NCBI RefSeq assembly: GCF_002953935.1
Contig: NZ_CP026514.1
Coordinates: 62,001 to 126,000 of the forward strand
Direction: 5' to 3'
Source of the DNA: Arthrobacter sp. PGP41
GTDB lineage: Bacteria > Actinomycetota > Actinomycetes > Actinomycetales > Micrococcaceae
DNA: 64,000 nucleotides
The notes beneath the pieces are model-generated. The model was not told the DNA's origin and did no database searches. It saw only the letters and a program-made list of their open reading frames with translations. Position 1 is the first letter of the stretch, and each line of letters begins with the position of its first letter. The position numbers were made by a program, and so were the translations under genes. Shown here piece after piece: positions 1 to 13,934 of this stretch.

Positions 1-69
1 CAATACCGCGTTCTGGGCGACTGATCGTTTTCAAGCCCAAGCAGTCCTTCCAGTTTCCGAAAGTTGAAC

Positions 70-1708
70 ATGAACACCGCGCCACGACTTGAGCACCACG
101 ACGCCCACACGCGACTGATCGTTGACGGAAAACCATTCCTCTGTATGGGCGGGGAGCTACACAACTCCAGTTCCTCCGATCGCCAATACATGGCCGAAGT
201 GTGGGAAAAGATTTCCGGATCAGGGGCAAATACTGTGATTGCCACAGTGGCCTGGGACCAGGTGGAGCCTCAGGAAGGGACCTTCGACTTCTCCGTTGTC
301 GATGGGATTCTCGAAGATGCCCGTGCAGCCGGCCTGAGACTGACCCTCATCTGGTTCGGGGCCTTCAAGAACGCGTCATCCACTTACGCACCCACCTGGG
401 TTCGGGCCGACAGGACACGCTTCCCTCGCGCGGACCGCGGACCGGAGCCCATGGAAACACCCTTCTCATACAAGGGCTCTATGCCTCGACCGACACTTTC
501 CGTGTTCTCCGACCAGCTCTTCAACGCCGATAGAACGGCCTACTGCCGATTCATGGCACATCTTGCCGAAGTCGACCAGCAGCACACAGTGATCATGGTC
601 CAAGTCGAAAACGAGGTCGGGCTTCTCGGAGCTGGCAGGGACCGATCGGCAGCAGCCCAGGCAGCCTGGGAATCGCCGGTTCCGGTGCCACTTCGCAAGG
701 CCCTGGCGAACAATGCCGACGTGTTCGATCCGACAGTGGCAACAGTCCTGCAACCAGTCATCGCTTCGGAGGCAAGTTGGGCTCACCATTTTGGTGACGG
801 CAACCCCGTTGCTGACGAAAACTTTCATGGCTTGGGCCTTCGCGACCTACGTCGGTGGACTCGCTGCCGCTGGAAAGGAAATTCTGGAGCTTCCCGCTTT
901 CGCCAATGCCTGGCTCGGGCCGCAACACGGGCAGGAACTTCCCGGAAACTACCCAAGCGGCGGGCCGACCGCGAAGATGATTCCGGTATGGCGGACGGCA
1001 GCGCCAGCCATCGATTTCCTCGCCCCGGATATTTACGTTCCGAACTCAGCCGAAGTCATGGCCCAGTACGCGTCGTCCGAAAATCCCTTGTTCATTCCCG
1101 AAGCCCGGTTCCGAGCCGGGGACGCCTTTCTTGCTGTCGGGCGCTTCGGTGCTCTGGGCTATCAGGTCTTTGGCCTTGAAGATGGCCGTCAGGTGAACCA
1201 GTACGGCCTAGCCTGTCGGGCAATCCTGGCACTTGCCGGCCAGATTGTTGACGCCCAGCGAGATGAACGGATCTTCGGATTCGCTTTGGAACAAGACGAA
1301 GATCTTGTCTCGACGACGCTCGGTGGCATCTCTATTACCGTCCGAAATTCAGCAAAGCTCTACAGGTCCATGCTCCTTGACGCCGGTGTAGTTTTGCCGC
1401 CGCCTGCAGAGCTCCCGGGTGAGACCGAGGGCGCGGCCCACGGGCACACTCCCGGGGATGGCCGTCCCTTCGGGCTCATCCTTGAAACGGGACCATTGGA
1501 GTTCCTTGTGGTGGGGCAGGGCGCGCTGTTCGATTTCTATAAAGAGGACTCAGAGCTCGAAGTTGATTCCGTGCGTGAGCTGCGGTTGACCCAGGACGGC
1601 TGGCGGGACGGCCGCCTCTTGAACGGCGACGAGCGGCTTCAGATTTTGAAGAATGACATGATCAGCGCTTCCAGGATCAAGCTGCTCGAGCTTTCCAAGT
1701 CCACTTAA
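70..1708 (+). pseudogene. GH35/GH42-like beta-galactosidase with DUF5597-type C-terminus, frameshifted
   Basis: The N-terminal part (70 to about 825) and the C-terminal part (827 to 1708) lie in different frames but together form one TIM-barrel glycosidase. It has the opening VDGKPFLCMGGELHNSS, a WDQVEPQEG strand, the acid/base motif VQVENEVG and a later PLFIPEARF segment that should hold the nucleophile Glu. The break is at AAC TTT C ATG GCT TGG: removing one base near 826 restores the family-like junction ENF-MAWAFATYVGGLAAAGK. Either the gene is inactive or this is a one-base sequencing error. An ATG at 70 is preferred over TTG at 64. Related enzymes release galactose or similar residues from oligosaccharides. 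The following dehydrogenase suggests a sugar catabolism locus that begins left of the window. Confidence 0.72.
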
Positions 1709-1741
1709 GACGCGAGGGTGCATGTAGAAGGAGGGAAAGCT

Positions 1742-1834
1742 ATGCACCAAAGTGAAAGCGTTTCCGACGGCTACGGGGGCAACGACATAAGCGCCACGGG
1801 AACCCCGCCCCGGCTGCTGCCGGCGCTGGAATGA
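1742..1834 (+). CDS. 30-codon leader-like small ORF overlapping the dehydrogenase start
   Basis: A strong ribosome binding site (AGAAGGAGGGAAAGCT) sits directly before ATG at 1742, whereas the larger downstream gene has no good site of its own. The ORF encodes 30 residues with no recognised domain. Its TGA overlaps the downstream ATG as ATGA at 1831-1834. This looks like a leader peptide that couples translation. The alternative is the remnant of a longer N-terminus separated from the dehydrogenase by a frameshift. No function can be assigned. Confidence 0.35.
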   Translation: MHQSESVSDGYGGNDISATGTPPRLLPALE

Positions 1835-2847
1835 GCACGGGCTTGAGACCTAACGCATCTAGCACGACACCCTCTCTGCCGTCCCCAAAGAAGCTGCGAT
1901 GGGGCATCGCCGGTACGGGAGGGATATCCCAGCAGATCACCGCCGACCTCACTCTCGTGGACAATGCGGACATCGTCGCCGTATCCAGCCGCCAGGCATC
2001 GTCCGCCGAAAAATTCGCACGAACTTTCAGCATCCCGACTTGCTTTGATGACTACCAAAGCATGCTTGCTGCCGACATCGACGCTGTATACATCGGGACG
2101 CCCCAAGTCACGCACTTCGAGTACGCGCGTGAGGCGCTCACCCGAGGCCGCCACGTCCTCTGCGAGAAACCGATTGGCTTGAATGCTGGTGAGGTGAGGG
2201 AACTTGCCTCCATCGCCTCGAAATTCGACGTTTTTTTGATGGAGGCGATGTGGATGAAGTTCAACCCTCTGTACCTCCGCTTGAAGAAGGTCATCGAAAG
2301 CGGAGCGATCGGGGAGATCCGCAGTATCAGATCCTCCTTCGGCGCCCCATTCCCGGAAGACGACTCAAGCCGCTGGAGGCCTGGCGGCAGCGCCTTACTG
2401 GACCAGGGCATCTATCCCGTGACCCTCAGCCACATGTTCCTGGGCCAGCCCTCGAGCATCACCGCGGCGGGCATCACGCGGGAAAACGGAATTGACGTGA
2501 GTGAGAACTTCACGCTCAACTATCGCGACGGATGCTTTGCCCAAGGCTCCAGCTCCATGATCAACTTCCTGGACCAGTCCGCATCACTATCGGGAACCCG
2601 GGGCTGGATCACCATAGACACGGGCTTCTGGTTCGCGTCGCAGTTCCAAGTCCACCGTTTCAGCATCGAAAAGGGCGAGACAACCGAGACTTATGAGACG
2701 AAGCGGGAGGGCAACGGGTACGTCCCAATGCTCCGCGAGGTCACTGCCGCGATTTTGAATGGAGAAAGGGAACATCCGTCCCACACCATGGACGAGACCG
2801 CACGGACCTTTGACACCCTGGACGAAATACGTCGACAGATCAGATAA
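1831..2847 (+). CDS. Gfo/Idh/MocA family NAD(P)-dependent oxidoreductase
   Basis: This 338-aa protein has an N-terminal Rossmann domain (WGIAGTGGISQQIT, GxGxxx dinucleotide motif near residue 26) and the family signature HVLCEKPIGLNAGE, whose EKP lysine is the usual catalytic or structural residue. A C-terminal alpha/beta substrate domain follows. Such enzymes oxidise or reduce sugars, inositols or their derivatives in the cytoplasm, and the exact substrate cannot be read from the sequence. It follows the broken glycosidase by about 120 bp in the same direction, suggesting a shared sugar catabolic role. The start overlaps the stop of a 30-codon ORF (ATGA). About 25 residues precede the Rossmann fold, more than usual, so a later start is possible. 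Confidence 0.85.
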   Translation: MSTGLRPNASSTTPSLPSPKKLRWGIAGTGGISQQITADLTLVDNADIVAVSSRQASSAEKFARTFSIPTCFDDYQSMLAADIDAVYIGTPQVTHFEYAREALTRGRHVLCEKPIGLNAGEVRELASIASKFDVFLMEAMWMKFNPLYLRLKKVIESGAIGEIRSIRSSFGAPFPEDDSSRWRPGGSALLDQGIYPVTLSHMFLGQPSSITAAGITRENGIDVSENFTLNYRDGCFAQGSSSMINFLDQSASLSGTRGWITIDTGFWFASQFQVHRFSIEKGETTETYETKREGNGYVPMLREVTAAILNGEREHPSHTMDETARTFDTLDEIRRQIR

Positions 2848-3893
2848 ATGCACAACCACGAAGGGCCCGCTAGGAAAGTACGGCTAAGCGCAGCAACCCT
2901 TCCGAGGCCAGGAGCAGGAATGCTTCAGGGATAGGAGTGGGCGAAGTTCCGCTGATCCCATCTGCTCTAATGCACGCCTAGTTTTGCCTTTTTGAGCTGC
3001 TTCCCCGCCCTACCTTTAAAGGCCGATAACGGATATTCCGTCACCCTGCCACCGCCCGGGCAAACCACGACTTGGTGATCACGTGGCCGGAACTGGTGGC
3101 GACTTCGTGCCGTCCAGGGCGCTGGAGTCAATTCAGGTTATCCACGGCTTCAAGTAGGAGCCGTTGGGGTAGCTCCCTGGTACGTTGGCGAGCCTCGCGA
3201 CCTCCGCACTGGTGATTTTTGTCTGCACCGTTGCAGGCCGCTCGTGCGAAAATGCAAGTTGCTGAAGCTTATACTTGCCAGTAGTTTTGCTTCTCGGTTG
3301 TTTCGCACATCCCCCAAATTGTGAAGCGACCAGGAAGGCCCCGCGGCGTCCCCCATGTTGCGGGGCCTTTCGTTAGGTGATGCCTGGCCAGCGGATGGGT
3401 TCCAAGGCCCCGTCCCCGTAGCCCACACACTCGCCAGTGTTTTCGAAAGCCCAACAGCGTGAATTTACGTTCTTGCACGCCTCCCTTGGGTACGAAGCCG
3501 CAGAACGTTCAAATTGACCGCGGCCGGCAGTTCTTGCAGTTGCTGCCAATCCCCCTGACGAAACGCCGATAATAAAGAGCATGTAAAGCAGAACTCTGCG
3601 TATCTCATCAGATGAATCAATAGGCTCGCTCCCCCGATCCGTAATGAGTGCTCCACATCATTGAGACTCCGTCGGTTTTGGCGGCCTGACGGCATCACAG
3701 AGTTGTGAGAGGTCTCATAGCCCATACGGATTCCGGGCCGCTCAGGGCGTCGCGGCGAGAGAATGCCGCATCCAGTCAGGAAAATGGCAGCCGCTGACCG
3801 GCCATCCGGACAGGTCAGCCGTGGCTGGAATCGGTCTCTCGCCAAATCCACTGGCATGCACGGGTATTAGTGAGCCAAGGCACGACGCCAGGG
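2848..3893. other. Long intergenic region without a recognisable gene
   Basis: About 1 kb between the dehydrogenase and the 618-aa gene. Open frames here (for example 3465-3857 on the minus strand) show neither family features nor the expected codon bias. GC content is lower than in most of the window. The only supported element is a hairpin at 3335-3370. The region may be the decayed edge of an inserted segment, but no transposase, integrase or direct repeat was recognised. Confidence 0.5.
3335..3370 (+). terminator. Putative rho-independent terminator hairpin
   Basis: AAGGCCCCGC (3335-3344) pairs with GCGGGGCCTT (3360-3369) across a short loop and is followed by TTTCGTT on the plus strand. 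No gene ends immediately upstream, so the transcript it terminates is unknown. It could end read-through from the dehydrogenase 490 bp upstream or an unannotated RNA. Confidence 0.5.
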
Positions 3894-5750
3894 TCAGGAT
3901 GTGCCGATGAGCAATCGCGCTAGATCCGCCGAGCAGTGGAGATCAAAGTGGCTCTGAGTCGTGGCAAGCAGCTTTGCGTTTGCCGTTCCGACGGCCTCGT
4001 CGAGTTTTTCTCCTTCAGATTCTAGGAATTGTGATACCCCCATTAGGAACTCGTGGGAGAGTGCCTCACCCGGATCGCGGGCGAGAAAGTGCGCGACCAT
4101 GCCGCTGCCCTTATCAACAACACCAAATTGGTTTGAAAGAGAAGACACGATAGCGCTTTGGCACGCTGCTTCGAAGTGTGCATCTATTCGGGACAACACT
4201 TCACGACTAAGGTGGTCGGTCGTTGACGCTCCAGGAATGCTAGATGGTATCGCCGACGCGAGTACGCAGTTCTCCCATATCCACTCTTTAACATCTTCAG
4301 GCAACTCATCTCCGCTGAGTTGGATATCAAGATGTTGTCTGAAGTTCCTGCGGAATCGTTCTGATAGACGGCGCGAGTCCAGCATCTCGTCAACAAAGAG
4401 CATTAGCTCCGGTACGGTGTGGATGACGGCCGCCGGGCGAGGAGAACCCTGCGTCCAATGACTGATCTCCTGCCGGACTCCCCCTGAAATGCGGGGGCCA
4501 AGCGCGGTAGGTCGAAAAACTAGAAGGGCCTGGTTGCAGCTCACCAGGAGGTGGTCTCTGAATGCGATTTCATCGTAGATAGTTGCCTGCAAAAGTCCTA
4601 TCACGCCCCGGTCCCGAGACGTGAGCTCGGTTCCATTGCTGAGGGCGTCAGTGAAATGTGGAGCGTCCTCGTTCGGGCGAGAATACAGAGCACGTTTTGG
4701 GACGGGCCATCGATCGGCGAGTTGAGCTGAATAGCGTTCTAGGTTGTCACCATCGGAGCTGCGTCTGAATCTAAGTTCATCGATTGCCGTTGGTTGGATC
4801 GCGACAACGCCAACAGAATCGCGCTGGGTTGCGGCGACGCGAGCGTCGAAGGTGCGGCGTAAACCTCCGGATAGGCGGTTTACGTCAAATGCAAATTGTC
4901 CCCAGCGGTCGTATTCGTTATGACCGTCCGATTTGAGGTTTTCCCCGCGGGGTTCTGTGATCTTGTGCGAGATGTAGGCCGACTTGATGTCCGGCCATCG
5001 GCACAGCGCTACGAGACTGTCCACTTCATGCTTAACGGACAAGACTGTCAGGGGAACGTCAAATGCCTTGGCAATCCCCTCCGCCGCCACCATTTCTGAG
5101 CGTCGCCAAGCTATCAATCGGAGTAGATTCTTGACATCCATGTCGAGAATCACCGATCTCGTTTGCTCGGCAGTGAAGCCGACCGGCAATAGTCCACCTG
5201 TAGCTAACTTCCAAGCGTGCGGCGTGTAGTCCTCGATAGCCCTGTCGCGCTGATAGAGGCCATCCGCCTTCTGCAGACGTGCGTACATGTCATAGATGTC
5301 ATCAATCAGAACTATGACTCGCCTAAGCTGCAGCCGCCGGGTGCCATCGGAATCAGTCGAGTCCTTCCCCACTGCTGGTCGCTCCACCAGTCTTCTGAGG
5401 CGTGCTTCGAATGGCGGGGTGTAAATCTCGAGCCGTCGCCCGGAAAAAAGTGTCAGGTGACCGGCCAAGACTGTTGCAGGGGCGGCAGATGATTCAAGTT
5501 CGTGGGAAGCGGAGCCGAAAGCCCGATCCCAGTAATCCAAGACGGTCTGCCTACTGTTGTTTGAGCAGACGTCTAGCATCGAAGCATCGCTTCTTCGGGT
5601 TTCAGAACGATAGAGACCCTTGAGATGCTCCTCAAGGTCACACACAGCCAATTCGGGGTGGCCACTCAGCGTGGCTGCTGTTTCACTTAGACCCGTTCCT
5701 GTCGCTGAGCAAACTAGAACTAGCGGCGCAGGATTTTCCGCGTCCTTCAA
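3894..5750 (-). CDS. Unrecognised 618-aa protein: P-loop-kinase-like N-terminus and deoxyribosyltransferase/SLOG-like segment
   Basis: No confident family. Residues 10-30 (VLVCSATGTGLSETAATL) resemble the strand-loop-helix of a P-loop kinase, but the Walker A lysine is absent (GTGLSE). Residues 145-155 (VIVLIDDIYDM) form a Walker B-like hydrophobic strand ending in acidic residues. Residues 390-430 (IYDEIAFRDHLLV, then VFRP and SGGVRQEI) resemble the nucleotide-binding segment of N-deoxyribosyltransferase or SLOG-like Rossmann folds. These are impressions from motifs, not domain hits. The start is TTG at 5750, overlapping the upstream gene's stop as TTGA, so translation is probably coupled. 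No signal peptide or membrane segment is visible, so it is probably cytosolic. Base composition is clearly less GC-rich than the surroundings, which suggests transfer. A defence or nucleotide-signalling role is speculation. Confidence 0.75.
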   Translation of the reverse strand: MKDAENPAPLVLVCSATGTGLSETAATLSGHPELAVCDLEEHLKGLYRSETRRSDASMLDVCSNNSRQTVLDYWDRAFGSASHELESSAAPATVLAGHLTLFSGRRLEIYTPPFEARLRRLVERPAVGKDSTDSDGTRRLQLRRVIVLIDDIYDMYARLQKADGLYQRDRAIEDYTPHAWKLATGGLLPVGFTAEQTRSVILDMDVKNLLRLIAWRRSEMVAAEGIAKAFDVPLTVLSVKHEVDSLVALCRWPDIKSAYISHKITEPRGENLKSDGHNEYDRWGQFAFDVNRLSGGLRRTFDARVAATQRDSVGVVAIQPTAIDELRFRRSSDGDNLERYSAQLADRWPVPKRALYSRPNEDAPHFTDALSNGTELTSRDRGVIGLLQATIYDEIAFRDHLLVSCNQALLVFRPTALGPRISGGVRQEISHWTQGSPRPAAVIHTVPELMLFVDEMLDSRRLSERFRRNFRQHLDIQLSGDELPEDVKEWIWENCVLASAIPSSIPGASTTDHLSREVLSRIDAHFEAACQSAIVSSLSNQFGVVDKGSGMVAHFLARDPGEALSHEFLMGVSQFLESEGEKLDEAVGTANAKLLATTQSHFDLHCSADLARLLIGTS

Positions 5751-5992
5751 CGCTTGAAGTAACTCTGGATGGCCACATGCCCCACGATCACATCTGTAGA
5801 CGTGATCACCGTCGGGGAGGTGAAGGCATCGCCAGCGTCCTCAATACTGCAAAAGGCAAGCCGTGGACCGGATCCCTTGGTGAGACTGTCGAAGAACTCA
5901 ACTTCTGATGGGTCTTCATCATCGACAAACATCGTGCCGTCAAGAAGCATTGGCGTTTCCAAAATTCTAGGTGTCACTTTGTCCCCATCCAT
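5747..5992 (-). CDS. Unrecognised 81-aa protein coupled to the 618-aa gene
   Basis: A small acidic protein beginning MDGDKVTPRILETPMLLDG, with a DDEDPSEVEFFDSL acidic stretch and a C-terminal hydrophobic strand (TSTDVIVGHVAIQSYFKR). There is no signal peptide or transmembrane helix. Its stop overlaps the TTG start of the next gene by three bases, so the two are almost certainly one operon whose products act together. The Shine-Dalgarno region is weak (GGCAGG, 9 nt upstream). It could be an immunity, sensor or adaptor partner, but nothing in the sequence decides this. Its composition matches its lower-GC partner. Confidence 0.6.
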   Translation of the reverse strand: MDGDKVTPRILETPMLLDGTMFVDDEDPSEVEFFDSLTKGSGPRLAFCSIEDAGDAFTSPTVITSTDVIVGHVAIQSYFKR

Positions 5993-7191
5993 CTAGTTGT
6001 ACCTGCCACTTGCCGAAACACTAGCTCTCTCGGTGCACCTTCTTCAATCAACAACTCGACTCATGCTTTGGTATATCACCTGGGGTGCCAGCGTAGCGGT
6101 CATTGACGCGCCATGGGTTTCAAAAACAGAACGGTCATTCCCTTCAAAGCGCCCTTCTGATGTCAGACGGAACCGAGGGTCGCTATTTCAAGTCAAAGCA
6201 GCAGGAAACCAAACCCCGGCCAGGGGTACGTGGTCCAGGTTATCGACGTTGGCCGGGGCTGTGACCGGCGGCCAATAGTTTCCCGGATCACCTAGCCGCG
6301 TTACAACCGTAAGTAGCCTCCGGGCGGATCAGCCAGGGCCGCAACTCACCCGACATATTGCTTTATGCTTCGACGGCCAGAGGCCCTCGCTGTGTGCCTC
6401 ATGCAAAAATGGCCCAACCCTCGGTGGCCTTCGTGCCGCGGTTGCCGGCCACGCGCGGGTCCTCGAAGAAATGCAGCCTCCAATGCAGGTGGAGAATTAC
6501 TCGTAGGCCGACTCCCGCGCCGTTGACGGAATCTCCATTATCGGTCCTCATGCGCCGGGAACGTGGTTCGAGAACCCCATTTGGAGCCATCCCGAAGAGA
6601 GGTGGCCGACGCCTCGTTTGAGGCGGAGAGTTCGCCATAGAAGTCGATTAAAAGTTCACCACGTAGGCCGTTTTGCGCAGTACGACGTGAGCAGCGAGCA
6701 CCTGGTTATACACACTACTTCCCTGATCTGGGGGCGAGGCCGGAGGCAGGCACCTACGCGCATGATCGTGGCCGAATCAGGCCGTAACTATCGCGGTCCG
6801 AACGGCCAAGGACTGACCATCATCCCTGGCGAGGAGGGCATCCGGTTAAACGGCCCTAAGGCTGCCGGCGAATCATTCGAAACATTCCATCTGTGGGAGC
6901 GCCAAGAAGCTCGGATATCCAAGGACGGCTGAGTCTTGTAAGGCCGGGAACCTGCCTTAGGGCGAGGTTGTTACAGCGATCTTGATTGCCGCCGCCGTCC
7001 GGGCGCTGAGATCGACAATGGGCGTCCTCGTGAGCGACGCACTGTGGGACAACTGGGCCGTTGGTCTCCATCTGTTCGAGAGAGTGGTGCGGCCACTGGC
7101 GGACGGGGAAAAGATCGGACGGGAGCTCAAGATCGAGTGGTTGCGGCCGGATACTTTCCACATGGCTGACTGCTCAGCCTCACCGCAGCTC
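5993..7191. other. Region without a recognisable gene
   Basis: About 1.2 kb between the accessory pair and the TetR gene. It should hold the promoter of the 81-aa/618-aa operon (minus strand). Open frames at 6618-6932 and from 6982 on the plus strand translate into fragments such as LWDNWAVGLHLFERVVRPLADGEKIGRELKIEW that look somewhat protein-like but match no family I recognise. They may be gene remnants. An imperfectly spaced inverted repeat, CCCCGGCCA/TGGCCGGGG, lies at 6214-6258. Nothing else stands out. Confidence 0.45.
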
Positions 7192-7896
7192 CTACCCCCG
7201 CAGGGCCCCCAGCCCGGAAATCAGCGCCTCCAGCCCCAGGCTGAAGGCCGCATCGGCCGGGGACCCGCCGCCATTCGCGGCACTCCGCACGGCGGCGGTG
7301 AAATGAGGCGTCGAGCCAGCCATCGTGCCCGAATCGAAGATGTCCGCCGGCGCTGTCACGTCGTACGCAGAGCCGAAGATAAAGGACTCCAGCGCCACGA
7401 TCGAGGACACCACCCGATCCTGTGGAAAGCCGGCGTCGAGGAATCCCTTGCTCACGGTCTCGTACATCGCCAGCGTCTGCGGCGCGTCCGTCACCGGAAG
7501 CACGGCAATGACCGGAATGAGCGGCGTATGCCGGGCGAAGACGTTCCGGTAGCTCCACGCCCAGCTCCGTACCGCCTCTTCCCAAGGAGCCGAGCCAAAA
7601 TCGGACACATCCACCAGTGAGGTCAAGTGGTCCTCCACCAGGAGCAGGACGTCCCGTTTCGAGGTGACGTGGTTGTAAAGGGCCGACGGCGCCACGTCCA
7701 GTTCCTTGGCCAGGCCCGCCATCGTGAGCCCGTCATAGCCCTTGCGGTTGATGAGCTCCAGCGCAGCCGCCGTGATCCCCGCCTTGTCCAGCAGTGCGGC
7801 GGACGGTCGTCCCGCGCGCCTCTTGGCCCCCGCAGCTCCAGCGGGGGTTCCGGGATTCTTCGCGGAGCGTCCCTGTACAGCTGGTCCTGCCGGCAT
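7192..7896 (-). CDS. TetR family transcriptional regulator, probable repressor of polyamine genes
   Basis: After a basic, alanine/proline-rich N-terminus (RRAGRPSAALLDKAGI) comes a canonical TetR helix-turn-helix: ITAAALELINRKGYDGLTMAGLAKELDVAPSALYNHVTSKRDVLLLVE. An all-helical ligand-binding domain ends in GLEALISGLGALRG. The start at 7896 is preferred because GAAAGG lies 6 nt upstream. ATGs at 7926 and 7989 are in frame, but 7989 lies inside the operator. The gene is divergent from putrescine oxidase, with a TetR-type palindrome in the shared intergenic region. The same palindrome covers the agmatine deiminase promoter, so this protein probably controls both. The inducer may be putrescine or a related amine (inference). 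Confidence 0.88.
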   Translation of the reverse strand: MPAGPAVQGRSAKNPGTPAGAAGAKRRAGRPSAALLDKAGITAAALELINRKGYDGLTMAGLAKELDVAPSALYNHVTSKRDVLLLVEDHLTSLVDVSDFGSAPWEEAVRSWAWSYRNVFARHTPLIPVIAVLPVTDAPQTLAMYETVSKGFLDAGFPQDRVVSSIVALESFIFGSAYDVTAPADIFDSGTMAGSTPHFTAAVRSAANGGGSPADAAFSLGLEALISGLGALRG

Positions 7897-9430: not shown

Positions 9431-11398
9431 TCACGCAGTGGCTGGTTCCAGCGGTATGCCTGGGAGGGTGCTGCCGGATGCCTTCGAATCCAGGTATCCC
9501 AGCGCCTGGGCCACCGGGACGGCTGAAGCCGCAGCCCAGGCCTGGGGACGGCAGGAGGCAGGGTACGGAACCGGGGGCCACGTGTCCGCGGCGCCGTGGC
9601 CGGCAAACAACTCCGGAAGGCGCCAGTTGAACCCCTGTGCCGCCCTGAGTAGACCGCCGGCGAGCCGCCGTGCTTCGTTCACGTACCCGTCGGAGAGCAG
9701 GCCGCCCAGGATCATGGCGCTGTCGTGCGTCCATACCGATCCCGCATGGTACCTGGTGGGCCAGTAGGCGGCGTTGGTGGTGGAGATGGTCCGGATGCCG
9801 TAGCCGGAGTACATGGCGGGGTCCATCAGCCGCCGGACTACGGTTTCCGTTTCCTCGGCATTCAGGATTCCGGTGCCGAGGAGGTGCCCCATGTTGCTTG
9901 CCACGCCATCCACGGGGTTCTTCGCGGCATCCAGGGCGATCGCCGGATACCGCCCGGTTTCGTCTTCGCACCAGAACGTGGCCCGAAAGCGCTCGCTCAT
10001 TTCCGCCGCATATGCGCGCCATTCCGCCGCCTCGGCAATGGCCTCCCCTTCCCCGAAGGCCTCCAGCAGGTCGGCGCCGGCGAGGGCAGCCGCGTATGCG
10101 TACCCCTGCACTTCACACAGTGCGATGGAGCCCTCCGCCAGGCTGCCGTTGTGCCAGCGGATGGAGTCGCCACTGTCCTTCCAGCCCTGGTTGGCCAGTC
10201 CGTGGCCCGATGTATCCAGGTATTCCAGGAAGCCGTCGCCGTCCGGGTCGGCGTGGTCCCGGAGCCAGCCAAGCGCGCGCGCCAGGTGCGGCATCAGGTC
10301 ACGCACCTCGTCGTCCGGCATGCCTGCCTGCCACGCCTCGTGCAGCAGCATGATCCACAGCGGGGTGGCATCGATCGTCCCGTAATAGACCGGCGGGAGG
10401 GAAACTTTCCCGTCCAAAGTGACGGTGTTGGTGACGCGCCGGACCTCATGGAGGATTTTGCCCGGCTGCTCCGCGGTGGCCGTATCCTCCTGGACACCCT
10501 GGCGCTTGGCCAATGCCCGAAGGGTGCCGGCCGCAAGGGTCGTGTCGATGGGGAGCAGCATCCGGGCCGCAATCAGGGAGTCACGGCCGAACATCGTGAA
10601 GAACCAGGGCGCGCCCGCAGCCAGGAAAGTGTCATCCGGGGAGTTCCGGTCAGCCATCCGCAGGCCGTTGATGTCGCTGAGGGCATGGTGCAGCAACCGG
10701 GCGATGTCCGCTGTGCCGTGTTCCCGGGGCGCGTCCGCCCCCGCCGCGGACTGCACAGGAATTGCCAGTCCCTGAGTGCGTGGCGCCATCATGGGGGCAG
10801 CGGAATCACGCGCAGTCAGGCGCCAGGAAAACCCTGTGCTGCCGCCGGCGGGCACCGTCACCAGCCAGGTTGCGGTCACGACGGCTCCGCCGGCGCTGAG
10901 AGTTGGCGATCCGGTGAAAGAGAGCTGCAGGTTGGTGTGATCATCCCGCCACTGCCATCCTTCCGGACGGACCTGTGGCGGGTGTGCCGAGGACTGCCCC
11001 TGCTTGATCCGTTCCAGGGGAGTGTTGTCAGCGGTCATACGGAGTTCCACGGCAAACGTGGCCGGGCTGTCCTGGGCGGAGACGATCTCAAACGATTCGC
11101 TGACCCCGGATCCATCCGCCGCACGCGTCCGGCGCAGGGACACGAGCGGGTCCGCAACGGCGGGGTCCGTTCGGATGAAGCTCAGGTAGCTCACGCTGTC
11201 CGCCCCGTGCGTCTGGGTTGAAACCCACCGGGGTTCCACGCCGTCCACGGAAAGCACCGCGACGGAAACAACCCGCTCGTCAGAGCAGTAGATGCCCTGG
11301 GCTTCGGCACCCCTGATCTGGCCGTCCGGTTCGGACCAGGCCTGCACGGGTGCGGCAAAGACTCCGGACAAGTCATGCATAAAAGGCTGATGGGTCAC
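9431..11398 (-). CDS. Amylo-alpha-1,6-glucosidase / glycogen debranching-like glycoside hydrolase
   Basis: A 655-aa protein starting at GTG 11398 with CAGGAG 7 nt upstream. The first ~220 residues match the beta-rich N-terminal domain of debranching-type enzymes (GAEAQGIYCSDERVVSVAVLSVDG). The rest is an (alpha/alpha)6 barrel with the characteristic APWFFTMFGRDSLIAARM, IDATPLWIMLLHEAW, DGFLEYLDTSGHGLANQGWKDSGDSIR and HAGSVWTHDSAMILGGL segments. No signal peptide is present, so it is cytosolic. It would hydrolyse alpha-linked oligosaccharides, but the substrate is uncertain because many of these proteins act on imported sugars rather than glycogen. It is divergent from a LacI regulator and sugar ABC transporter and shares their operator motif, so it probably acts on the imported sugar. 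Confidence 0.85.
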   Translation of the reverse strand: MTHQPFMHDLSGVFAAPVQAWSEPDGQIRGAEAQGIYCSDERVVSVAVLSVDGVEPRWVSTQTHGADSVSYLSFIRTDPAVADPLVSLRRTRAADGSGVSESFEIVSAQDSPATFAVELRMTADNTPLERIKQGQSSAHPPQVRPEGWQWRDDHTNLQLSFTGSPTLSAGGAVVTATWLVTVPAGGSTGFSWRLTARDSAAPMMAPRTQGLAIPVQSAAGADAPREHGTADIARLLHHALSDINGLRMADRNSPDDTFLAAGAPWFFTMFGRDSLIAARMLLPIDTTLAAGTLRALAKRQGVQEDTATAEQPGKILHEVRRVTNTVTLDGKVSLPPVYYGTIDATPLWIMLLHEAWQAGMPDDEVRDLMPHLARALGWLRDHADPDGDGFLEYLDTSGHGLANQGWKDSGDSIRWHNGSLAEGSIALCEVQGYAYAAALAGADLLEAFGEGEAIAEAAEWRAYAAEMSERFRATFWCEDETGRYPAIALDAAKNPVDGVASNMGHLLGTGILNAEETETVVRRLMDPAMYSGYGIRTISTTNAAYWPTRYHAGSVWTHDSAMILGGLLSDGYVNEARRLAGGLLRAAQGFNWRLPELFAGHGAADTWPPVPYPASCRPQAWAAASAVPVAQALGYLDSKASGSTLPGIPLEPATA

Positions 11399-11594: not shown

Positions 11595-12623
11595 ATGGCG
11601 TCACGGGTGACTATTGTGGACCTCGCCGAGCAGCTCGGAGTATCCCGGCAAACGATCTCCAATGTTTTGAACGCGCCACACCGGGTCAAGGAAGAGACTC
11701 GCATCCGGGTGGCCAGGGCAATCGAAGAAAGCGGCTATCGGCCCAACGCGGCCGCCCGGCAGTTGCGCAACCATGTGTCACGGAACATCGGCATGCGGCT
11801 GCAGCCGGCCGGCAACGGAATCAGCGGGACGGTACTCACGGATTTCCTGTACGGGCTTACGGAGGCTGCACACGGCCACGGATACCGCGTGACGCTCTAC
11901 TGCGCGGACTCGGACGAGGAGGAAATCAGCCGGTACGAGGAGCTGGTCACGGAGGCTGACCTTGACGGCTTCATCCTCACGGCAACCCACCATGACGATC
12001 AGCGGGCCGCCTGGCTCGTTCAACGCGGGATTCCGTTCGTAGCCTTCGGCCGGCCCTGGAACGCGGGGAGCGACGTGCGCGAAGCCAGCCATTCGTGGGT
12101 GGACGTCGACGGCCGTATCGGGACACGCGAAGCCACCGAACACCTCATCGCGGCAGGGCACCGGAAGGTCGGCTACATCGGCTGGCCGGACGGTTCCGGT
12201 GTCGGCGGGGACCGGCGGGCCGGGTGGCAGGAGGCGATGGCGGAACATTTCGGGACGGAAGACCCTGCACCGCTCAACTACTCCGGCGAAGACACCGCTG
12301 CCAGCGGCTCCTCGGGCGCGGCCTACCTGCTGGCCAAGGGAGCCACCGCCTTCGTCTGCGCCAGTGACAGCCTCGCCCTCGGCGCCAGCGCGTACCTGCG
12401 GCAGTCCGACCAGCCCGGCCTGGCCTCAGCCGTCGTCGGCTTCGACAACACCCCGGTGGCGGCCGCCGTCGGCCTTTCCAGCGTGTCACAGCCCGTGGAA
12501 TCCGCGGCCGGCGAGGTCATGCGGCTCCTGCTCGGCCATTTGAACAGCCCGACGGCGGAACCGCAGCACGTGCTGCTGCGTCCCAGGCTTGAGCTTCGGG
12601 ACCTCCAGCCGTTCAGCCACTAG
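11595..12623 (+). CDS. LacI family transcriptional regulator
   Basis: A 342-aa protein with the N-terminal LacI helix-turn-helix and hinge (VTIVDLAEQLGVSRQTISNVLNAPHRVKEETRIRVARAIEESGYRPNAAARQLR). The periplasmic-binding-protein-like sensor domain includes DLDGFILTATHHDDQ, GHRKVGYIGWPDGSGVGGDRRAGW and AFVCASDSLALGASAYLR. ATG at 11595 follows AAAGGAGACGGGCG. It is the first gene before a solute-binding protein and two permeases and is divergent from a debranching-type hydrolase. Two matching palindromes in the 196-bp divergent region make it the likely local repressor, relieved by the imported sugar or its breakdown product. Confidence 0.92.
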   Translation: MASRVTIVDLAEQLGVSRQTISNVLNAPHRVKEETRIRVARAIEESGYRPNAAARQLRNHVSRNIGMRLQPAGNGISGTVLTDFLYGLTEAAHGHGYRVTLYCADSDEEEISRYEELVTEADLDGFILTATHHDDQRAAWLVQRGIPFVAFGRPWNAGSDVREASHSWVDVDGRIGTREATEHLIAAGHRKVGYIGWPDGSGVGGDRRAGWQEAMAEHFGTEDPAPLNYSGEDTAASGSSGAAYLLAKGATAFVCASDSLALGASAYLRQSDQPGLASAVVGFDNTPVAAAVGLSSVSQPVESAAGEVMRLLLGHLNSPTAEPQHVLLRPRLELRDLQPFSH

Positions 12624-12662
12624 CTTTTACAGCCACAACAAACCCCAACTAAGGATCAGACA

Positions 12663-13934
12663 ATGATGACTGCACTACACCCTGCCCAAAAACAGAAAGC
12701 ATCCCGCGTGCTGGCCGGCGCCGTCACTGCCCTCGCCACCCTCGCCCTGGTTGGCTGCGGCTCCGGTTTCAGCGGCGGTGGCGCGGGCGGCTCGGAAACC
12801 CCTGGCGCCGGCGGCCCGCTGAACGTTCTCATCGCGTCCTCGGGGGAAGCGGAATCCACCGCAGTGAAAACGGCTGTGGCTGACTGGTCCGCCGGCGCCG
12901 GAACGGAAGCCACCGTCAACGTCGCCTCGGACCTGCCGCAACAGCTGAGCCAGGGCTTCGCCTCCGGCAAGCCAGCCGATGTCTTCTATGTCTCGGCCGA
13001 CCAGCTGGCCAACTACGCGGGCAACGGCTCACTCGAGCCGTATGGAGATGCGCTGGCCAATAAGGATGACTTCTATCCAGCCCTGACCGAAGCCTTCACC
13101 TATGACGGGAAGCTCTACTGCGCACCCAAGGACTTCTCCACGCTGGGGCTGGTCATCAACCGGGACCTGTGGAGCCAGGCAGGGCTAACCGAAGCCGATG
13201 TTCCCCGGACCTGGGAGCAGCTCGAGGCCGCAGCCGCCAAGCTGACCCGGGACGGCACCGTGGGCCTGGCATTCGGCCCCGAGTACCAGCGCGTGGGAGC
13301 CTTCTTCGCGCAGGCCGGAGGCGGCCTGGCGAAGGATGGCAAGGCCAGTGCCAACAGCGGAGAGAATGTTGAGGCGTTGGGCTTCGTCAAGAAGATGATG
13401 AACGACGGCGTGGCCAAGTTCAGCTCCGAGCTTGGCGCAGGCTGGGGCGGCGAGGCCTTCGGCAAGGGCCAGGCCGCCATGGTGATCGAGGGCAACTGGA
13501 TCCAGGGTGCCCTGGACAAGGACTACCCTGCCATCAACTACCAGGTGGCCGAACTGCCGGAGGGGCCGGGCGGCAAGGGGACCCTGACCTTCACCAACTG
13601 CTGGGGCATCGCGGCGGACAGCAAGAACAAGGACGCCGCCCGGAAGCTGGTGGAGCAGCTGACCAGCAAGGAAAGCCAGCTGGCCTTCTCAGCGGCCTTC
13701 GGCGTGATGCCGTCCATCAAGTCCGCCCGTGAGGAGTGGACCGCAGCCTTCCCGGCCCTGGCACCCTTCATGGCAGGTGCAGATTACGCCCAGACGACCC
13801 CCTTGCAGCAGGGCGCGGCTGACGTCCTGGCGGATTTCAACGCCCAGCTGGAGCAGCTGAAAGACAAGGAGCCCAAGGCCATCCTCGATTCCACCCAGGA
13901 TTCACTGGAACCGGTCCTTGAGGGGGCAAAGTAG
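12663..13934 (+). CDS. Sugar ABC transporter substrate-binding lipoprotein
   Basis: A 423-aa protein with a lipoprotein signal: basic N-terminus, hydrophobic core and lipobox LVGC at about residues 30-33, followed by a Gly/Ser-rich linker. The mature part is a family 1 extracellular solute-binding protein, with the GKPADVFYVSADQLANYAGNGSLEPY hinge segment, LYCAPKDFSTLGLVINRDLW and GQAAMVIEGNWIQGAL. It captures a sugar or oligosaccharide outside the membrane and hands it to the two permeases encoded immediately downstream. No ATPase gene is in the cluster, so a shared MsiK-like ATPase encoded elsewhere is probably used. ATG codons at 12663 and 12666 are equally possible starts. Confidence 0.9.
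   Translation: MMTALHPAQKQKASRVLAGAVTALATLALVGCGSGFSGGGAGGSETPGAGGPLNVLIASSGEAESTAVKTAVADWSAGAGTEATVNVASDLPQQLSQGFASGKPADVFYVSADQLANYAGNGSLEPYGDALANKDDFYPALTEAFTYDGKLYCAPKDFSTLGLVINRDLWSQAGLTEADVPRTWEQLEAAAAKLTRDGTVGLAFGPEYQRVGAFFAQAGGGLAKDGKASANSGENVEALGFVKKMMNDGVAKFSSELGAGWGGEAFGKGQAAMVIEGNWIQGALDKDYPAINYQVAELPEGPGGKGTLTFTNCWGIAADSKNKDAARKLVEQLTSKESQLAFSAAFGVMPSIKSAREEWTAAFPALAPFMAGADYAQTTPLQQGAADVLADFNAQLEQLKDKEPKAILDSTQDSLEPVLEGAK

Follow-up and report, generated by a model that had tools for sequence, protein, structure and literature searches.

A conserved gene pair in Arthrobacter sp. PGP41 joins a lysine-less adenylate-kinase-fold protein to a probable redoxin-like partner: a candidate nucleotide-processing module

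The DNPH1/Rcl N-hydrolases are relatives of the nucleoside 2-deoxyribosyltransferases. The part of PMC3710099 that deals with the AbiJ-NTD1-deoxyribosyltransferase abortive-infection proteins proposes these as conflict effectors that deglycosylate nucleotides or DNA, and cites an active-site role for the glutamate of deoxyribosyltransferases. A comparable activity is proposed here for a pair of overlapping genes in a 64,000-nucleotide stretch of the genome of Arthrobacter sp. PGP41 (contig NZ_CP026514.1, positions 62,001 to 126,000 of the forward strand; hereafter the window), to which an earlier model-made annotation (the original prediction) had drawn attention. AbiJ-NTD1 proteins have HEPN/AbiJ domains, whereas the pair has a kinase fold and a probable redoxin-like partner, the like of which goes unmentioned in the relevant part of PMC3710099. 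As far as searches of Pfam, PADLOC, the Protein Data Bank (PDB) and the literature show, the pair is a real, conserved and undescribed two-gene unit. Tentatively, and with somewhat less than even confidence, we read it as a module that senses and cleaves nucleotides, has a redox-dead redoxin as a subunit and probably serves in defence or in a stress response.

Both genes lie on the minus strand. The larger (window 3894–5750) encodes 618 residues from a TTG start that overlaps the stop codon of the smaller (5747–5992; 81 residues from an ATG), the four shared bases reading TTGA in the open reading frames (ORFs) just as originally described, and the two are presumably transcribed together. For the small gene, a GTG start (5975–5977), giving 76 residues, is more likely, since MTPK opens its close relative P0091 and follows four further residues in P0092; the database entry for the gene, P0084, has 67 residues and starts even further in. 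No convincing gene was seen by eye in the flanking DNA on either side (2848–3893, about 1.0 kb, and 5993–7191, about 1.2 kb), in agreement with the isolation first ascribed to the pair. GC content is about 0.52–0.57 over the pair, 0.56–0.61 on its left and 0.59–0.69 on its right; the lower GC claimed for it therefore holds against the right side, while the contrast with the left is slight.

That the pair is more than a chance arrangement is clear from its conservation. Two sequence searches, both of which scored the 8000 candidates sharing most words, found at least 26 and then at least 48 relatives of the large protein, and among the 55 pattern matches from a scan of 84,980 species genomes, 17 were relatives (loci L001–L017). 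Small ORFs beside the large gene were first spotted by eye and then aligned. To avoid circularity, the resulting profile was stripped of each locus's own row before it was compared with all stop-to-stop segments of at least 40 residues at that locus (38–296 segments; for the window, its first 16 kb). The best-scoring segment was one adjoining the large gene in all 18 loci (the 17 and the window), with E ≤3.5e-6 in 15 of them and 0.025, 0.022 and 0.17 in L005, L017 and the window, respectively. Some rows are not fully independent, L013 being close to L015 and L010 to L011; L006 and L017 were absent from the profile, yet their partners were recovered. The partner lies upstream of the large gene in L001–L011 and the window, and downstream in L012–L017. 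Since L012–L016 form one clade with P0056 in the tree (support 100/99; L017 was too short to include), gene order follows ancestry. In the sequence databases, P0091 shares 80% identity with the small protein, and P0002 shares 71% with the large one. For each of the two, the longest contig given has 14741 bases, and this is probably one and the same contig.

Small and large genes that are always adjacent, in either order, that overlap, and that sit in a mobile, low-GC setting would also suit a toxin–antitoxin pair, in which the large protein would cleave nucleotides as the toxin and the small one would be a plain antitoxin kept for addiction. However, most full-length rows of the large protein have 500–715 residues, more than is usual for a classic toxin, and the conserved kinase fold suggests sensing; we regard this explanation as unlikely.

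The kinase fold occupies the N-terminal part of the large protein (residues 7–252; 4995–5732, minus strand). A fold search, whose listed matches cover residues 5–255, identified it as an adenylate-kinase-like P-loop fold, the same as that of the archaeal-type adenylate kinases (for example 6pjw, 6ln3 and 1kht), to which the large protein is about 10–14% identical and from which it differs in carrying a second, fused domain and in having a small gene as its partner. At the P-loop position stands TGTGLS (residues 17–22; 5685–5702, minus strand), with leucine in place of the lysine of the Walker A motif, GxxxxGK[ST]. The lysine is lacking in 57 of the 61 rows that have a full P-loop; the four that keep it are the divergent L010, L011, L017 and P0050, and its loss elsewhere may thus be secondary. 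Both N-terminal motifs of the original prediction are accordingly real: the P-loop-like start without the lysine (GTGLSE, residues 18–23) and the acidic IDDIYD (149–154), in which D150, D151 and D154 are conserved. Together with H98, E108, R158, W215, R216, E219 and K240, these aspartates are kept in 64–70 of 70 rows. A likeness to terpene synthases (PDB matches at E 0.26–3.7) came through IDDIYD and was rejected as the chance effect of one short acidic motif.

Ten residues so well kept are more than would be expected of a dead domain and, along with the few rows that retain the lysine, they favor an active kinase whose phosphate-binding loop is unusual and whose fused second domain would bind substrate only. 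Such a kinase would nevertheless lack the Walker lysine in nearly all of its members, and the larger share of invariant residues is held by the deoxyribosyltransferase-like part, so we consider it very unlikely.

That part (residues 255–445; 4416–4988, minus strand) is assigned from its motifs and from its order of strands and helices: strand 256–261, helices, strand 314–318, a long helix at 378–405, strand 408–412, helix 423–434 and strand 440–445. This is the order found in deoxyribosyltransferases. Y259 lies on the first strand, D399 inside the long helix, and S422-x-G424-x3-E428 opens the next helix; the last is the SGGVRQE segment (residues 422–428; 4467–4487, minus strand), in which Glu428 would be catalytic. 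The motif [S/D]-x-G-x3-E is present in 67 of 69 rows, Y259 in 70 of 70 and D399 in 69 of 70, and serine in place of the first aspartate is the DNPH1 pattern. Further conserved positions are S261, H262, I264, R268, P320, I323-D324-E325, R347-W348, R398, H400 and R413-P414. The RDH...RP...SGGVRQEI segment of the original prediction is thus present at its stated place, residues 398–429. Among 43 deoxyribosyltransferases (PF05014), D-x-G-x3-E occurs in 42, a count that is partly by construction, because most of the set was fetched with that motif; the spacing from Asp to Glu is 24–28 residues in 37 of the 43, compared with 29 in the large protein. Unlike them, the large protein has about 60 additional residues separating the second strand from the long helix, and its invariant SH, IDE, RW and RDH motifs were not seen in the compared enzymes. 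On this evidence it is plausible that residues 255–445 work like a deoxyribosyltransferase. The 20 families listed for 40 members at E ≤1 do not include PF05014, and no profile match places the protein in that family. DUF1195, EAP30, AAA_33 and other Pfam matches were each found in one of the 40 members, and were set aside; the window's two fall below their curated cut-offs, and the best match of any member is EAP30 at E 0.0018. Similarly, no SLOG family was listed in the Pfam scans, no dedicated SLOG comparison having been run. The rest of the protein (residues 446–618; 3897–4415, minus strand) is mostly helical.

The small partner is probably redoxin-like, judging from profile comparison, and probably redox-dead. 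Aligned by hhalign with 30 NrdH/glutaredoxin pieces (collected by hidden Markov model and forming a shallow, weak template set), the small family scored 22.2 (E 7.6e-4), against a maximum of 14.2 in 60 shuffles and 12.2 for the reversed control. The alignment with these redoxins (PF00462) is collinear, and the redoxin proline and glycine pair with P60 and G71, the two most conserved positions of the small family, in which Leu37 is conserved as well. In a PDB profile search, two glutaredoxins (E 1.3 and 1.6) were among 13 weak matches. In contrast to glutaredoxins and NrdH, the small family has the CxxC redox site in only one of 49 rows. No Pfam domain matched the small protein or its database relatives.

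The pair is rare and widely scattered in bacteria and archaea. The 17 loci come from Acidimicrobiia, Planctomycetota, Hakubella, Microbacteriaceae, Arthrobacter, Bathyarchaeota, Methanophagales, Hydrogenedentes, Terriglobia, Hippea, Flavobacterium, Altarchaeum, Chitinophagaceae and Brocadiaceae. Among 395 Micrococcaceae genomes, a profile search found the large protein in one, the window's own; another genome of that family, Arthrobacter sp. ISL-48 (L005), carries a divergent copy. In a 67-row tree, the metagenome-assembled genomes of a Hippea bacterium and an Altarchaeum archaeon (L013/L015) are sisters at 100/100 on short branches. Either the pair crossed between the domains recently or one of the contigs was wrongly binned, which is possible because both genomes are metagenome-assembled. 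We propose that the pair is a horizontally moving module. At L015, a short ORF upstream of the pair (9511–9777) duplicates the start of a larger downstream gene (11765–12850), and the cassette is thus flanked by two copies of one gene, one partial and one full.

In PGP41, the pair adjoins the right end of a strain-specific 36.5-kb insertion, about 1.2 kb from it. The inserted segment (chromosome C1:32697–69196, its last part being window 1–7195) has no counterpart at the site in any of ten relatives picked from a 61-genome list (matches of at least 150 bp; 18–19 kb of each relative), whose flanking blocks are 33 bp to 4.9 kb apart; in two of these relatives (L054 and L055), the left block also stops sooner, near 30.7 kb. 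The TetR/amine-oxidase block to the right of the pair (window 7192 onward) was matched in 61 of 61 genus genomes, and the oxidoreductase to its left (1831–2900) in 9 of 61, several of these matches being short. There is no tRNA at the insertion ends, though a tRNA-Leu lies about 2 kb left of the left end, and a search for end repeats found one chance inverted 11-mer only. One relative has an extra stretch of about 11 kb (L053:3485–14606) near the tRNA-Leu by the insertion site, and the region therefore looks like an insertion hotspot. Within the window's part of the insertion, a sugar-hydrolase-like gene (64–1708) is split over two overlapping frames of 371 (64–1179) and 331 residues (713–1708), perhaps by a frameshift.

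Defence genes were traced near the pair at some of the other loci. At L001, type III methyltransferase and restriction genes (E 1.5e-201 and 4.6e-195) lie about 1.3 kb upstream. At L003, a type II methyltransferase (9.7e-120), a restriction enzyme (4.2e-12), a ThsB-like TIR gene (about 1e-16), a gene of no assigned family and the pair follow one another on the same strand; the fourth of these (L003:9038–9571, 178 residues) has no Pfam or PADLOC match and may share the island. At L004, a PifA/KAP NTPase (1.1e-56) and a methyltransferase (3.5e-44) are nearby, and L016 has conjugative coupling ATPases nearby. The PADLOC scan covered 148 of 152 neighbouring ORFs of at least 110 residues, the first ten having been picked by eye; the four dropped were the L001 small partner, an antisense ORF of L004 and, in L014 and L017, the longest ORF of each. 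Further PADLOC families matched among the neighbours (34 and 7 at E ≤1e-5, among them PDC-M05A at 2.1e-48 and PDC-M37B at 7.1e-23), their carriers untraced. Of ten ORFs tested, only one had a match, an ABC transporter by Pfam.

What would such a pair do? In the reading that we favor, the adenylate-kinase-fold domain, having lost the phosphate-gripping lysine, would probably bind a nucleotide as a sensor rather than transfer phosphate. The fused deoxyribosyltransferase-like domain, with Tyr259, Asp399, Ser422 and Glu428, would cleave the bond between base and sugar in a nucleotide or in a signal derived from one, and would be followed by the helical C-terminal part. The redoxin-like small protein may be a regulatory or docking subunit that keeps the enzyme off until a trigger arrives. 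A more specific version, in which the pair is an undescribed immune module of bacteria and archaea whose lysine-less sensor switches on the fused N-glycosidase, with the redox-dead redoxin as the switch subunit, is possible but doubtful.

Several results weigh against the favored reading. Neither window protein matched any family in PADLOC-DB 2.0.0 at E ≤10. Residues 250–450 aligned with the 43 deoxyribosyltransferases at P 0.14 (hhalign), compared with 0.16 for the reversed control and an equal score in one of eight shuffles, and an earlier profile comparison with eight deoxyribosyltransferases was likewise no better than controls; the likeness first noted at residues 398–429 thus stands in its motif and in strand and helix order, and profile homology is not significant. 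Deoxyribosyltransferase, SLOG and TIR structures were not among the 50 listed fold matches, but that list spans residues 5–255 and is filled by the kinase domain, so it is no evidence on any of the three. The redoxin match is one pairwise test against the shallow template set, and a previous comparison (six sequences, four in wrong frames) gave no match. No relative was found in viral contigs, plasmids or phages (for plasmids and phages, with a single query). Defence genes were traced at three of the 17 loci, a count that comes without a background rate for comparison and with several contigs ending close to the pair, and the gene content of the insertion is mostly catabolic-looking by eye. 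The original idea of a nucleotide-processing defence or signalling module is upheld in part.

The lack of traced defence neighbours at most loci and of any PADLOC match, and the sugar-catabolism-like genes that adjoin the pair within the same insertion (by eye), would fit an accessory metabolic pair, with the large protein processing or salvaging an unusual nucleotide or nucleoside, the small one as a structural subunit, and no role in conflict. But a metabolic pair would hardly be expected to be so rare and scattered or to have cross-domain sister rows in its tree, and no shared metabolic neighbour was seen by eye; on balance, we find it rather unlikely.

If the proposed sensing and cleaving module is real, it would represent a new architecture for nucleotide destruction or sensing during infection, made up of a lysine-less kinase sensor, a base-cleaving enzyme and a redox-dead redoxin. 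This architecture would span bacteria and archaea while being invisible to Pfam and PADLOC, and the invariant E428, D399 and D150/D151 make the idea directly testable.
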